A stretch of DNA of 64,000 nt from an uncultured Anaeromyxobacter sp. (GTDB taxonomy: Bacteria > Myxococcota > Myxococcia > Myxococcales > Anaeromyxobacteraceae), in contig CAIVAR010000005.1 of the NCBI GenBank assembly GCA_903904005.1, forward strand, positions 1 to 64,000, read 5' to 3'. Position numbers and translations under genes: made by a program. Under the pieces are notes generated by a model, which saw only the letters and a program-made list of their open reading frames with translations, did not search any database and had not been told where the DNA came from. This document shows, one piece after another, positions 36,445 through 56,890 of this stretch; position 1 is the stretch's first letter, and the number at the start of each line of letters is the position of its first letter.

Positions 36445-38232
36445 TCAGTTCGCCTGCGGCAGGTCCACCTGGAAGGTGGACCCCTTGCCCGGCTGGCTGG
36501 TCGCCGAGATCGTGCCCCCGTGCGCGGTGACGATGGCGTGGCAGATGGCGAGCCCGAGGCCCATGCCCTGTCCCACGCCCCGGGTCGTGAAGAAGGGATC
36601 GAACATGCGCGCCATCACCTCCGGCGTCATGCCCACGCCGTCGTCCGACACCTCCAGGCGCGAGAAGCCGGGGGCGCCCGCTCCGAGTCGGATGCGCACG
36701 AGGGAGCCCCGCCCTTCCGGCGCGGCACGGATCGCGTTCACGATCAGGTTCGCGACCACCTGCTCGATCTGGCCCGCCGAGGCCGCCACGTCCGGCGCCC
36801 CGCCGCCCTCCACCTGGATCGCGGCCCGCAGGAGCAGGGACGGGGGGATCCAGCGCATGGCCCCCTCCACGACCTGATCGAGGACGACGCGGTCCCGCCG
36901 GACCTCCGGACGCCCGAGGAGGCTGAGGTCCTTCACGATGGTGGCCACCCGCTGCTCGCCCGTGGCGGCGTCCTCGAGCGCGTCGAGCACCTCGTCGAGG
37001 CGCCGGGCGGCCGCCTCTCGGTCGAGCGGTTCTCCCGACCGGAGCCGGTCGCGGACGCGGGCGACCTCATCCGAGGAGAAGCCGTGGGAGGCGATGGCGC
37101 CGCCGAGCGGGTTGTTCACCTCGTGCGCCACCCCCGCCACCAGCGTTCCGATCGCCGCGAGCCGGGATGCGACGGCGAGCTGCTCCCGGAGGGCGCGCGA
37201 CTCCGTGACGTCCAGGACTCCGGTGATGAAGTGGAGGGGGCGGCCGTCGGGATCGCGAAGGAGGGACGATGCCACCTCGGCCCAGACGATGCTCCCGTCC
37301 GCCCGGACGTAACGTTTCGACAGCGGGCTGGAAGGGATGCCATCGAGGAGCGCCTTCATGTATGCGCGGCTCCTCTCGACGTCCTCGGGATGGGTGACGT
37401 CGCCGATGGTGTTCCCCAGGAGCTCGTCCGCCCGTCGACCCAGCATCCGGCAGAAGGCCTCGTTCACCCGCAGGAACCGGCCCGACAGGTCGGTGAGCGC
37501 CTTCCCGATCGAGGCGTTCTCGAAGGCGGTCCGGAAGAGTTCCTCGCCCTGGCGCAGCTTCCTGGACGTCTCCGCCTCGTGGCGTAGGGCCAGGAACTGC
37601 AGGCGGCGGGACCGGTGGAGCTTCCAGGAGGCGAACCCACCGGCCAGGTTGGCCGCGACGAGGGTGAAGGCGATGAGCACGATCGCGGGCGCCGGCGGAG
37701 GGATGCGGTACGCGATCAGCCAGGCCAGGCCCGAACCTGTCAACGCAGCCGCGGACAGGATCTGGCGCGAGAAACGAGAGGGGATGGCCGTGAAGTAGAC
37801 CAGGACGCCGATCGCGTTGAGCATCACGGGGAGGTAGTAGTCGTCCGGGCGCGTGGACTGGAGGACGATGGTGAAGGCGCCCCCCACGGCCGCGCTGGCG
37901 AGGACGGCCAGGTCGAGCGCAAGGGCGCTCCGGGCCCGTAGACCGAGCCACACCACCAACGCGCCCGACACGAAGTAGACGGCTCGGGCCAGGAGCACGT
38001 GGCCCAGCCGCCCGGCGGGCCTCGCGAAGACGAGGTCGTTGAGGACGAAGGGGAAGGTCAGCAGGACGAAGACGCCGACCGTGGTGGCCGCGGTGCGGCC
38101 GTCGTCCCGAAGCGTCTCGACCCGGAACTCGGCCTCCAGGCCGGCGGGCCGGAGCGTGGCCCCGGACAGCCGGACCCCGGTCTCCGGCGACCCGGGTCCC
38201 GCCGAAGGCGAAGGTGAGGCGCTCGATCCCAT
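36445..38232 (-). CDS. Orphan membrane PAS histidine kinase
   Basis: The protein has 595 residues. Six hydrophobic segments span ~50-203 as the membrane sensor region. A PAS domain follows at ~230-347 ([52 protein letters not shown]). The dimerisation domain has the phospho-accepting His370 in [14 protein letters not shown]. The ATPase domain shows the N box ([17 protein letters not shown]), [31 protein letters not shown] and [18 protein letters not shown]. No response regulator is adjacent, so it is an orphan kinase, common in Myxococcota. The ligand is unknown. A 10-bp hairpin lies just before its start. Confidence 0.88.
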
Positions 38233-52079: not shown

Positions 52080-54400
52080 GGCGCCGGGTGGCGAGGTGGC
52101 TCCTCCGGGGAGCCCTGGCGTCCTGCGCGGTCGCGGGTGCCGCCACGCTCGCCTTCGTCTCCTGGCCGCTGCCCGAAGGGCTCCTCGAGCGGAGCCACGC
52201 CGAGACGCTCCGCTTCACCTGGCGTGACGGGCGCCCGCTGCGCGACGTGAACGGCGGGCCGGACGGGCGGCGCATCGGGCTGCCGCCCGGCGAGCCCCTG
52301 CCGCCACGGGTGGTCGGGGCCTTCCTGGCCACCGAGGACCGGCGCTTCGGCGTGCACCCCGGGGTCGATCCGCTGGCCGTGGCGCGCGCGACGGGGCAGA
52401 ACCTCCGGGCCCGCCGCATCGTGAGCGGCGGATCCACCGTGGCCCAGCAGCTGGCGCGCCTGCTCGTGCCCCGGCCCCGGACCCTCTCCGGGAAGGTGCA
52501 GGAAGCGCTCTGGGCCGTTCGACTCACCGTGCACCTCACCCCCGAGACCCGCCTCCGGGCCTGGCTCGACCGCATCGCGCTGGGGAACGACCTGCGCGGG
52601 GTCGAGGCCGCCGCCCAGGCCTACTTCGGACGCCCGGCCGCCGCGCTCTCCACGGGACAGGCGGCGATGCTCGCCGGGATGGCCGGCTCCCCGGCCCGCT
52701 TCGATCCGCGCCGCCATCCGGAGGCGGCGGCCGCCCGCATGCGGCTCGCCCTGCGCCGCATGGTCCGGACCGGCGCCGTGACCGGGGAGGAGGCCGTGGC
52801 CGCCGCGGAGGCTCCGCTCGACCTGTCCGTCCCGGGCCGCCCGTTCGGCGCCCCCCACCTCACCACCTGGCTGCTCGCCAGCCGGGGCCTCCTGGGGCTC
52901 GAGCGGGCCGTCTCCATCGAGACCACGCTCGACGAGGGGCTGCAGCAGGACCTGGAGGCGATCCTCCAGGAGCAGGTCGAGGGGGACCGGCGCGTGGAGC
53001 AGGCCGCGTCCCTCGTGATCGACAACGCCACCGGCGAGGTCCTGGCCTACGCCGGCTCGGCCGATTTCCACGACGAGGAGCGGCAGGGGCAGAACGACGG
53101 CGTCCGCTCCCCGAGGCAACCCGGCAGCGCGCTCAAGCCCTTCGCCTACGGGCTCGCGCTCGCCGACGGGCTCACGCCCGCGACGCTCCTCTCCGACGTC
53201 GAGATCCAGCTCAGCACTCCGTCGGGGAGCTGGGTCCCGCGCAACTATGACCGGAGGGTTCACGGTCCGGTCCGGCTCCGGGCGGCGCTCGCCAACAGCT
53301 ACAACGTCCCCGCCGTCCGGCTCGTCGACCGGATCGGGCCGGATCGGGTCCTGGCCGTGCTCCGGAAGGCCGGCCTCGCGTCGCTCCGGGAGGGGGTCGA
53401 CCACTACGGGTCGGGCATCGTCCTCGGGAACGGCGACGTGACCCTGCGGGAGCTCGCCCGCGCGTACCGGGGGCTCGCGCTCGGAGGCCGGCTCGAGCCG
53501 CTCACCGAGATCCGGTCGGCGCGGGACGGCGACGGGCGTGCCCTGCGTCCGCGCCCCGAGGTCGAGCCGGATCGGTTCCTGCCGGCGGGCGCCGTCGCCC
53601 TCCTCACCGACATCCTCGCCGACGAGCCGGCCCGTGCCCCGGCCTTCGGGCTCGACAACGCGCTGCGCCTGCCCTTCCCCGTGGCGGCGAAGACGGGCAC
53701 GAGCCACGCCTTCGTCGACAACTGGACGGTCGGCTACACGGCCGAGCGCACCGTCGCGGTCTGGGCCGGGAACTTCGACGGCCACCCGATGCGCGGCGTC
53801 TCGGGCATCAGCGGCGCGGCGCCGATCTTCTCCCGCGTGATGGAGCGGGCCATGCGGGGCATCGCGCCCCGTCCCCTCGTCGACCGGAGCGCGTTCCAGC
53901 GGGCGCGGGTCTGCACCCTCTCCGGCGCGCTCGCCGGCCCCGCCTGCCCGTCGGCGGTGGACGAGTCGTTCCTGCCCGGTACCGCGCCAGGGGATCCCTG
54001 CCCGATGCACCGCCACGTGGGGCCCGGAGGGCTCGACGTGGGGCCCGAGTTCTACGGGTGGGCGGCGGCCGAGGGGATCGACGGCGGCCCCCGGGCAGTC
54101 CCGGCGCCGGGGGCCTCGACGGGGCCCGGGGACATCGTCCTCCCCGCCGACGGCGACGAGTACCTCCTCGACGCGGGGCTGCCCGCCGTGGCTCAGTCCA
54201 TTCCCGTCCGCATCCGCCCCCCGGCCGGAGCCGCGCGGGTCGAGCTGCGGCAGGAGGATGGCGCGGTCCTGGCGCTCGAGGCTCCGTTCGCCGGCCGCCT
54301 CCCCGCACTCCCCGGGCGCCACCGGGTGGAGCTGTGGGTCCCCGGGGGCACGGGTCCGGTCGCGCGGGCGACCTACCAGGTGCGCGGGGGCGCGCCGTGA
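52076..54400 (+). CDS. pbpC: Penicillin-binding protein 1C (bifunctional)
   Basis: The protein has 774 residues from GTG 52076, overlapping the macroglobulin stop. The N-terminal transmembrane anchor (ALASCAVAGAATLAFVSW) is followed by the GT51 glycosyltransferase domain with catalytic Glu87 in ATEDRRFGVHPG and GGSTVAQQLAR. The transpeptidase domain has all three motifs: Ser351-x-x-Lys354 (PGSALKPF), Ser408-Tyr-Asn410 (ANSYNVPAV) and Lys539-Thr-Gly (AKTGTSHAF). The C-terminal ~85 residues are the BiPBP_C beta domain typical of PBP1C. It therefore should polymerise and crosslink peptidoglycan, probably for repair next to the protease trap encoded upstream. Confidence 0.95.
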   Translation: MRRRVARWLLRGALASCAVAGAATLAFVSWPLPEGLLERSHAETLRFTWRDGRPLRDVNGGPDGRRIGLPPGEPLPPRVVGAFLATEDRRFGVHPGVDPLAVARATGQNLRARRIVSGGSTVAQQLARLLVPRPRTLSGKVQEALWAVRLTVHLTPETRLRAWLDRIALGNDLRGVEAAAQAYFGRPAAALSTGQAAMLAGMAGSPARFDPRRHPEAAAARMRLALRRMVRTGAVTGEEAVAAAEAPLDLSVPGRPFGAPHLTTWLLASRGLLGLERAVSIETTLDEGLQQDLEAILQEQVEGDRRVEQAASLVIDNATGEVLAYAGSADFHDEERQGQNDGVRSPRQPGSALKPFAYGLALADGLTPATLLSDVEIQLSTPSGSWVPRNYDRRVHGPVRLRAALANSYNVPAVRLVDRIGPDRVLAVLRKAGLASLREGVDHYGSGIVLGNGDVTLRELARAYRGLALGGRLEPLTEIRSARDGDGRALRPRPEVEPDRFLPAGAVALLTDILADEPARAPAFGLDNALRLPFPVAAKTGTSHAFVDNWTVGYTAERTVAVWAGNFDGHPMRGVSGISGAAPIFSRVMERAMRGIAPRPLVDRSAFQRARVCTLSGALAGPACPSAVDESFLPGTAPGDPCPMHRHVGPGGLDVGPEFYGWAAAEGIDGGPRAVPAPGASTGPGDIVLPADGDEYLLDAGLPAVAQSIPVRIRPPAGAARVELRQEDGAVLALEAPFAGRLPALPGRHRVELWVPGGTGPVARATYQVRGGAP

Positions 54401-55542
54401 GCGGGACCGGCGCGCTGGCACTCGCGATCCTTCTCGGCGCCACGGGGAGCGGGCTCCCGGAGGAGCTCTCGGTGCGGATCCTCGGGCGGCTGCACCCGTC
54501 GTCGGTGCGGATCACCCGGCCGGGCGAGGCCCACGTGGCGGCCGTTTCGGGCGACCGGCTCTGGGTCGACGGACGGGTCGCAGCGGAGCCTCGTTCCTTC
54601 CCGGAGGGACGGTGGCGCGTCGAGGTCGACGGGGTTCCCGCCCGCCCGTACGTCGGGGCGATCACGCTCTCGCGCGACGGTCGGGAGGTGGAGGTGGTGG
54701 TCCGGATCGGGCTCGAGGAGTACGTGGCGTCGGTGGTCGCGGCCGAGACCGAGATGGGAACGCCGCTCGAGGCGCTGAAGGCCCTCGCCGTGGTGGCCCG
54801 TTCCTACGCTGCCTCGGCCCGGGACCGGCATGAGGGCGCGGACCTGTGCGACCTCGCCCATTGCCAGGTCATGGGCCCGGCGGGGACGGGCGTCCACCGG
54901 GCCGCTGCGGTGGCGGCCGCCCGTTCCACCTCCGGGCAGGCGCTGCGGGTCGACGGCGAGCGGGTGGCGGAGGCGCTCTTCCACGCGGCCTGCGGGGGGC
55001 ACACCGCCGATCCGGCCGAGGTCTTCGGGGGCGAGGGTACCGGGGCGGCTGCCATGCCCGATCCGGGATGCGCTCCCGCGCCCTGGCAGGCACGGGTCGG
55101 GGAGCCGCTCCTCGCCCGGGTCGCGGGGCGGGAGTTCGCCGCGGGGAGGGGGATCGAGACGCCCGTTCCCGTCGACGCCCTGCGCTTCCTCCGCGGCAAG
55201 GGGGGCTACGTGATCCAGGTCGCAGGCGAGGACGCCGTGGTCCGCGGGGAGACCTTCACGCGGGCCCTCGACCGGGCCCTCGGGCACGGGAGGGTGCGCG
55301 GTTCCCGGTTCGAGGTTCGCCGGTCGGAAGGCGCCCTCCGGATCACCGGGAGCGGCATCGGTCACGGCGTCGGCCTCTGCCAGACCGGCGCGGCGAGGAG
55401 GGCGGGTGAGGGGCAGGGGTACGAGCAGATCCTCCGCCACTACTTCCCCCGGGCCCACCTCGACCCGGCCGTTCTCACGCTCGGTCCCGCGGAGCCAACT
55501 GCCCCGCCGTGGGCTCCGCTCAGCAGAACCAGTTCTCGGTGA
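54397..55542 (+). CDS. SpoIID/LytB-domain protein
   Basis: The protein has 381 residues from GTG 54397, overlapping the pbpC stop. A short hydrophobic N-terminus (GALALAILLGATGSG) may be a signal. The SpoIID/LytB fold is clear: LEEYVASVVAAETEMGTPLEALKAL, then VVARSYAASARDRH, AHCQVMGP, FHAACGGHTADPAEVFGG, and the end motif GSGIGHGVGLCQTGAARRA, GYEQILRHYFPRAHL. In Bacillus, SpoIID cleaves glycan strands lacking stem peptides. Non-sporulating relatives are thought to be lytic transglycosylases or amidase activators. Operon position after pbpC supports a peptidoglycan role. The last ~30 residues are unconserved, and the 3' end overlaps the antisense radical SAM tail. Confidence 0.9.
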   Translation: MSGTGALALAILLGATGSGLPEELSVRILGRLHPSSVRITRPGEAHVAAVSGDRLWVDGRVAAEPRSFPEGRWRVEVDGVPARPYVGAITLSRDGREVEVVVRIGLEEYVASVVAAETEMGTPLEALKALAVVARSYAASARDRHEGADLCDLAHCQVMGPAGTGVHRAAAVAAARSTSGQALRVDGERVAEALFHAACGGHTADPAEVFGGEGTGAAAMPDPGCAPAPWQARVGEPLLARVAGREFAAGRGIETPVPVDALRFLRGKGGYVIQVAGEDAVVRGETFTRALDRALGHGRVRGSRFEVRRSEGALRITGSGIGHGVGLCQTGAARRAGEGQGYEQILRHYFPRAHLDPAVLTLGPAEPTAPPWAPLSRTSSR

Positions 55543-56890
55543 GGCGGGGCGTTCCGGCGGTCGTGAACGGGCGGGCCACGTGGGAGTGGGCCCGGCCCGC
55601 GGCGGCGAGCGCGAGCGCCCTCACCTCGGCCACCGTGGTGGCGGGGTCGTCGCCGCGGGTGGCCGCCGCGGAGACGAGCGCGGCGACCCGGGTCTGGAGG
55701 TCGTCCATCCGGGGATCGGGGTGGCGCCACCGCCAGGAGAGCGCCGCCGGGTCGAGCCCCTCGAGCGGAAGCTCCGGGTCGCCGAGGAGAAGCGACCCGG
55801 GCGGCACCAGCAGGCGGAGCGAGAGCTGGACGGGGTCGATCCGCCCGATCCACCCCCGCTCCTCGAAGGTCTCGACGAGCTCGAGGTAGCCCTCGAGGGT
55901 CTCCCAGGGGGTGAAGGGGACGAGGGTGGGGCGGAGCGGGAGCCCCGCCCGGTCGCAGGCGTCGAAGGCGCGGAGGACGTCGGCCCGGACGTGCCCCTTC
56001 TCGAGCTTCCCGAGCACCCGGTCGGAGAGCGACTCGACCGCCGACACGACGAAGATCGCACCGCAGGCGACGAGCTCGGGGAGCAGCGCGGCGTCCCGCA
56101 CCAGGTGCTCCACCTTGGCGGTGAAGTCGAAGGTGACCGCGGGGAAGCGGCGGCGGAACTCCCGCGCGACCCGGAGCGCGTGCCCCGGCCCGTTCAGGAA
56201 GTCGGGGTCGCCGAAGGTGAGGTGGGTGACGCCCCGCGCGACCTGCTGCGCGACGTCGTCGAGGACCGTCTCCACCGGGACCGCGAGGAAGCGCCCGTCG
56301 TAGACGGCGGGGATGGGGCAGTGGCGGCAGCGGTGGAGGCAGCCGCGCGTGGCCTCGGTGTAGCCGGCGGTCCGCTCGCTCCCGTCGACCTCCCGCAGCC
56401 GGGCGTAGCGCGCCGGAGACGGCAGCCCGTCGCGCAGCGGGACCGGGAAGGCGAGCCGCCCCCGCGACGCGGCCGCGCCGCCCCGCTGGACGAACCGGGA
56501 CAGATCCTCGCCCCGCTCGACCGCCTGCGCGAGCGCCACCAGTTCCTCCTCGCACTCGCCCCCGAGCACGGCGCAGGCGCCGGCCTCGAGGAGCAGATTG
56601 GCGTGGAGCGGCGCATAGGTCCCGTGGAAGGCGATCCGGGCCGAGGGGTCGAGGGAGCGGATCCGCGCCGCGGCGTCGAGCCCCAGCCGCAGCGCGGTGT
56701 GCATCGGGACCGAGATGGCGACGAGCCGGGCACGGGCCACGCGCGCCTCGTCGAGCGGCTCGACAGCGAGGTCGAGCGTGGCCGGCCGGAAGCCGGCCCG
56801 CGCCAGGAAGGCGGCGGGCCAGGCGATGCCCTGCGGCTGGTGTCCCAGCTCGTAGGTGGAGACGAGGAGGACCGCTCCCTCGCCCCGCAT
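55475..56890 (-). CDS. CUAEP-tail radical SAM selenoprotein (B12-binding-type N-domain)
   Basis: The protein has 471 residues if the in-frame TGA at 55522-55520 is read as selenocysteine (Sec457), and 456 if not. The N-terminal ~140 residues resemble a cobalamin-binding Rossmann domain (VLLVSTYELGHQPQGIAWPAAFL, ending GGECEEELV), though without the classical DxHxxG. The radical SAM cluster is Cys184-x3-Cys188-x2-Cys191 (RGCLHRCRHCPIP). The tail reads NWFC-Sec-AEPT and then ten further residues to a TGA at 55475. This matches the annotation-level family I recall as CUAEP/CCAEP-tail radical SAM proteins. A perfect hairpin begins right after the TGA. Substrate is unknown. It is three bases downstream of yggX in one operon. 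Confidence 0.88.
55489..55519 (-). promoter_or_regulatory. Candidate bacterial SECIS hairpin
   Basis: On the minus strand, GCGGAGCC (55519-55512) pairs perfectly with GGCTCCGC (55496-55489) around a 15-base G-rich loop (CACGGCGGGGCAGTT). The stem begins at the base after the TGA, in the position of bacterial SECIS elements that recruit SelB. There is no T-tract and the hairpin lies within spoIID-like coding sequence on the other strand, arguing against a terminator. Confidence 0.7.

Follow-up and report, generated by a model that had tools for sequence, protein, structure and literature searches.

We found that the in-frame TGA at positions 55520–55522 on the minus strand of the window, the whole 64,000-nucleotide stretch of Anaeromyxobacter DNA analysed here, almost certainly encodes selenocysteine (Sec), signalled by a small RNA hairpin just after the TGA. 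Judged by sequence comparison, the gene encodes a CUAEP-tail radical-SAM protein, and we are highly confident that the signal is the minus-strand hairpin at 55489–55507. This reading draws on coding past the TGA, the exchange of Cys and Sec among orthologues, the covariation of the stem, its disappearance from most Cys versions, and the presence of the full Sec machinery; from these we infer that SelB would bind here and that Sec would actually be inserted at the TGA. The family is already curated by NCBI as a selenoprotein, and the SECIS element is of the known bacterial kind. What is new here is the identification of the correct hairpin, together with the comparative evidence for it and an account of how it decays.

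The gene occupies 55475–56890 on the minus strand and matches the family within its own genome with one internal TGA. When this TGA is read through, translation continues to a second TGA at 55475–55477, giving a product of 471 residues with Sec at position 457, directly after the TGC codon of Cys456. The translation around the site reads RLTENWFC-U-AEPTAGQLAPRDRA, so that the in-frame continuation is C-U-A-E-P; the 14-residue post-Sec tail (55478–55519, minus strand) is largely translated SECIS, and tails of 10–27 residues follow the codon in all 77 distinct TGA rows of our orthologue set. In a profile search the product scored 649.2 bits against NF040546, 'CUAEP/CCAEP-tail radical SAM (seleno)protein' (curated cut-off 500), with a match that reaches residue 466, beyond Sec457. 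The score above cut-off together with the C-[UC]-A-E-P tail places the protein in this family: the match is full length, the C-U-A-E-P tail is identical, and we saw no difference that would exclude membership, whereas the protein model is silent on the SECIS. A literature search found no paper with CUAEP, CCAEP, NF040546 or rSAM_CUAEP; NF040546 is absent from the main text of PMC13188914, and 'radical SAM' from PMC12013277. Two Haft selenoprotein papers cited by PMC13188914 lie outside that search, and hence the family cannot be called undescribed in print.

Among 195 Myxococcota genomes, 30 carry a match over the cut-off, and all of these except L038 have one internal TGA. Of 533 relatives found by scanning named genomes, 80 loci were retained. 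After removal of L100, which has no tail, and of eight loci whose tail is identical to another row (the same species in two collections), 101 distinct tails were compared, 77 with TGA, 16 with TGC and 8 with TGT at the Sec position; tails were located by a motif that includes [ED]P, and any lacking it would be missed. The host falls within Anaeromyxobacteraceae: L027, from a genome of the window's genus (G046), shares its tail with L050, from an uncultured Anaeromyxobacter sp.

The 77 TGA tails align without gaps from +1 to +34, counting from the first base after the TGA. The conserved hairpin pairs +13 to +19 with +25 to +31, that is, the 5′ arm GCGGGGC (55501–55507) with the 3′ arm GCUCCGC (55489–55495) around the loop AGUUG (55496–55500). 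In this register 83.8% of cells are paired against 65.2% after shuffling, cells in which both bases have changed number 99 against 34.3, and the covariation score is 0.522 against 0.203, a value reached in none of 500 shuffles; registers slid along the alignment score at most 0.205. Measures that count pairs or pair types give no clear excess over shuffles (6 pairs against 5.9; 20 types against 17.6, with 45 of 500 shuffles as high). RNAalifold, given no prior input, chose five of the inner pairs of the same hairpin, and in roughly a fifth of the rows the pairing lies one base nearer, with a 4-nt loop of AGUU or AGGU.

The stem exceeds what the encoded peptide requires. When synonymous codons were redrawn, the TGA rows had a mean stem run of 6.31 (null 4.20 ± 0.15) and a mean minimum free energy (MFE) of −12.4 (null −7.4 ± 0.3), and the Cys rows showed no excess in either (3.21 against 3.32; −4.35 against −4.32). 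In the loop, 73 of the 77 TGA rows use the codon CAG, compared with 14 CAG, 9 CAA and 1 CAT among the 24 Cys rows; the Cys forms thus keep the glutamine but are under less constraint at the nucleotide level. In three Anaeromyxobacteraceae loci (L016, L022 and L028) the peptide after Sec has been replaced and the hairpin has moved within the coding tail. L022 and L028 carry it at spacings of 18 nt and 25 nt, respectively, together with an altered tail peptide and a loop that still contains GUU; in L016 the stem is disrupted at its usual site, and visual inspection shows an ACC-AGUU-UGGU pairing further downstream. Relocation of the hairpin with a changed tail peptide in L022 and L028, and perhaps in L016, suggests selection on the RNA and not on the peptide.

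The hairpin at 55489–55507 also conforms to the features of bacterial SECIS elements set out in parts of PMC13188914: a loop of 3–9 nt, a stem of 4–16 bp, a G in the first two loop bases, 16–37 nt from UGA to loop, and an MFE of at most −7.5. Its stem is 7 bp, its loop 5 nt (AGUUG), its spacing 19 nt and its energy −11.8 kcal/mol. Like the elements described in those parts, it lies directly 3′ of the Sec-UGA and within the coding region, with a 7-bp upper stem and a G in the first two loop bases; it differs from the commonest pattern given there in that the loop ends, A and G, form no N1–N2 pair. A strict version of the test, which demands a contiguous stem, was passed by 65 of the 77 TGA tails and 4 of the 24 Cys tails, and among the latter only L086 has its stem at the conserved place. 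At Rfam gathering scores no SECIS family matched and a single tRNA was returned, so the hairpin is not represented among those matches.

We built a covariance model, R1, from 35 of the 48 TGA tails outside Myxococcota, leaving out 13 with the 4-nt loop register. It found the window site at 55486–55522 on the minus strand with 45.6 bits (E = 2.5e-13), a score that does not reflect structure alone, because the model covers the UGA and the AEP codons and thus favours TGA rows regardless of structure. The next match in the window, at 37641–37655 on the plus strand (11 bits, E = 0.074), was viewed in three frames and taken as chance. Over 53 loci, comprising 28 Myxococcota TGA rows, the 24 Cys rows and L048, the model gave at least 36.7 bits to 23 of the 28 other Myxococcota TGA rows, and the best Cys row reached 31.4.

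Stem and codon change together across the family. Compensatory change in the Sec orthologues and relaxation in the Cys orthologues are both seen for the hairpin at 55489–55507, with L086, L090 and L110 as exceptions. Stem runs of 5 bp or longer occur in 73 of 77 TGA tails versus 4 of 24 Cys tails (Fisher p = 1.4e-13, uncorrected for kinship), and pairing in the 24 Cys tails is at the shuffled level (44.6% against 44.7%). On the protein tree, from which L097 was left out (fewer than 300 residues), the distribution of Sec and Cys needs six changes, three of them forced by starred branches. A kinship-corrected sign test over 200 pairings gave, out of 3 pairs, 1.8 in which stem and codon agree and 0.0 in which they disagree, with a median p of 0.5; this test cannot reach significance because the Sec/Cys changes are few.

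Some loci appear to record the decay of the element. In Thermogemmatispora carboxidivorans (L086:3875–3911, plus strand), whose genome has SelA, a TGT codon is followed by a perfect SECIS-like stem at the conserved place, apparently a fossil SECIS left behind when Sec was recently replaced by Cys. Other Thermogemmatispora Cys tails retain partial stems (L061, L062 and L075, beside the full stem of L086), and of the seven Cys genomes in which SelA exceeds its cut-off, five belong to this genus; stems and SelA together are as would be expected of a recent Sec-to-Cys change. The stems of two TGA loci, L090 and L110, are broken. In the tree L090, from Ktedonosporobacter rubrisoli, branches within a group of Cys rows; its tail is just 10 residues long, and candidate readings are a reversion, a decaying Sec site or a true stop.

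The window's own genome (98% complete) is that of a Sec-decoding organism, with selA, selB, selC and selD all over curated cut-offs: tRNA-Sec scored 80 bits, SelB 286.7 bits, SelA 469.6 bits over two pieces in one frame, and SelD 387 bits. This SelD (L048, contig C7) has an in-frame TGA of its own and is itself a predicted selenoprotein, with the hairpin GCGCA-GGUCC-UGCGC placing its loop 32 nt after the UGA. Of the 73 genomes initially chosen, 50 were covered for SelA, which exceeded its cut-off in 22 of 27 TGA genomes versus 7 of 23 Cys genomes. SelB over the cut-off was found, among the matches listed, in 26 of 29 Myxococcota TGA genomes, the exceptions being G041, G043 and G011. The TGA rows L041 (G011) and L022 (G041) come from genomes about 92% complete, and the absence of SelB over the cut-off among their listed matches possibly reflects assembly gaps. 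The Myxococcota Cys genome G026 (88% complete) likewise had no SelB over the cut-off among the matches listed.

These features suggest how decoding may proceed. SelB carrying GTP and Sec-tRNA(Sec) would bind the apical loop of the hairpin at 55489–55507, 19 nt after the UGA, and would deliver Sec once the UGA reaches the A site; the ribosome would go on to read the hairpin, whose translation is the short tail AEPTAGQLAPRDRA. While the UGA occupies the A site, the bases immediately after it, including the GCGGAGCC side, should sit inside the mRNA channel of the ribosome. Only the conserved hairpin should therefore form at the moment of decoding.

The preliminary description of this DNA had proposed another hairpin, at 55489–55519, as the SECIS, and that hairpin does exist: directly after the TGA, GCGGAGCC (55519–55512) and GGCTCCGC (55496–55489) form eight Watson–Crick pairs around the 15-base loop CACGGCGGGGCAGTT (55511–55497, minus strand), in which 7 of 15 bases are G. 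It is a rival pairing that uses the same 3′ arm, and we consider it very improbable that it is the SECIS. Its pairing is perfect in the window, where 1% of 200 redraws of synonymous codons for the window row reached all eight pairs; all eight are present in 5 of the 77 TGA tails, and the 8-bp stem is the favoured fold of isolated 39- and 60-nt pieces. In 46- and 52-nt pieces the favoured hairpin is instead the one sharing its 3′ arm, and the stability of the 52-nt fold does not exceed that of shuffled sequence (z = −0.35); with the outcome varying with piece length, we set single-sequence folding aside as uninformative. Across the 77 TGA tails the 8-bp pairing (+1 to +8 with +24 to +31) is no better conserved than column composition predicts: 59.2% of cells are paired against 59.2% after shuffling, covariation is 0.080 against 0.090, and a register slid by +1 does equally well. 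The lack of stem conservation among TGA orthologues that the preliminary description had named as the observation that would tell against its SECIS is thus what we found for this stem, which by that measure is refuted. Against the features in PMC13188914, furthermore, the loop is too long (15 nt, beginning CA, versus 3–9), the spacing too short (8 nt versus 16–37), and neither of the first two loop bases is G. Nor is a perfect 8-bp stem rare: with loops of 3–20 nt, the window (73% GC) contains 75 of them, compared with 69–88 in five mononucleotide shuffles. The proposal of a SECIS directly after the TGA therefore holds, and its assignment to the 8-bp hairpin does not; likewise the comparison of TGA with Cys orthologues that had been suggested succeeds for the overlapping hairpin at 55489–55507, and the 8-bp stem is without conservation in the TGA tails themselves. 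The 8-bp stem arises because the segments GCGGAGC (+1 to +7, codons A-E-P) and GCGGGGC (+13 to +19, codons A-G-Q) are identical but for a single base, which leaves the conserved 3′ arm free to pair with one or the other.

This shared arm also bears on whether the two mutually exclusive hairpins might both be at work in Anaeromyxobacteraceae, acting as a switch to tune Sec insertion. They are similar enough in stability for the MFE structure to flip with piece length, and seven or eight of the eight pairs recur in the family (L009, L018, L023, L024, L027, L029 and L036). We nevertheless assign the switch a very small probability, since the upstream pairing shows no covariation, L015, L017 and L020 of the same family lack it, and the common arm with similar codons accounts for that pairing. 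A related idea for this family is that the upstream GCGGAGCC is a competing 'anti-SECIS' arm that would sequester the SECIS 3′ arm in free mRNA until the decoding ribosome covers the upstream arm and frees the SECIS hairpin; we regard this as a long shot. That the TGA is a genuine stop, with tail and hairpin incidental, is exceedingly improbable. The standard open reading frame does end there, and in most genes a TGA does simply mean stop; against this, A/S/T-E-P codons come next in all 101 distinct tails (picked by a motif with E/D-P), Cys codons are aligned to the TGA in 24 of them, the stem covaries, and the Sec machinery is present.

On the opposite strand, a convergent gene with a SpoIID/LytB domain (54397–55542, plus strand; TIGR02669, 143 bits over residues 100–356 of 381) overlaps the Sec tail with its C-terminal end by 68 bp, at 55475–55542. 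The preliminary description had held that this coding sequence constrains the hairpin and makes its perfection notable. The overlap is real, the open reading frame ending at 55542, and the perfection is ordinary given the number of such stems in shuffled sequence. We saw the overlap in no genus but the window's own, with tblastn matches at 4 of 109 tail-bearing loci (L009, L027 with its duplicate L050, and L029).

The protein combines a radical-SAM core (PF04055) with a B12-binding-like N-terminus that scored 31.7 bits against PF02310, just short of the gathering score of 32.1. Its predicted structure has a confident core (mean pLDDT 91) and low confidence after residue 452, and in fold this model comes closest to AprD4 and to TsrM, a cobalamin enzyme. 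By profile score, the characterised family that lies nearest is ArsL (NF040542), an arsinothricin radical SAM enzyme according to PMC8552651; we rejected ArsL identity, the score being 269.5 bits against a cut-off of 450 and the match extending only to residue 401. The two are related in sequence and, going by family names, share a tail with paired Cys or Cys-Sec (RCCLKC in ArsL). A redox or metalloid-handling role for the Cys-Sec pair is our guess. The neighbours of distant orthologues revealed no shared partner: the commonest Pfam family occurred in 5 of 52 flanking ORFs, hand-picked for nearness among the 150 listed of 278.

For the gene itself, the analysis corrects the end of the coding sequence, adding Sec and 14 residues past the apparent stop. 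It also illustrates how, in a genome of 73% GC, a TGA followed by a perfect hairpin can be misleading, and it names which hairpin to mutate. If the anti-SECIS reading were true, Sec insertion would be licensed only by a translating ribosome. A testable lead is the Cys-Sec pair conserved at the C-terminus of this radical-SAM enzyme, a relative of ArsL, which makes As–C bonds. Finally, the family lends itself to clean comparison, with 77 Sec and 24 Cys tails from many phyla and a covarying stem that has mostly disappeared where Sec and Cys have been exchanged.
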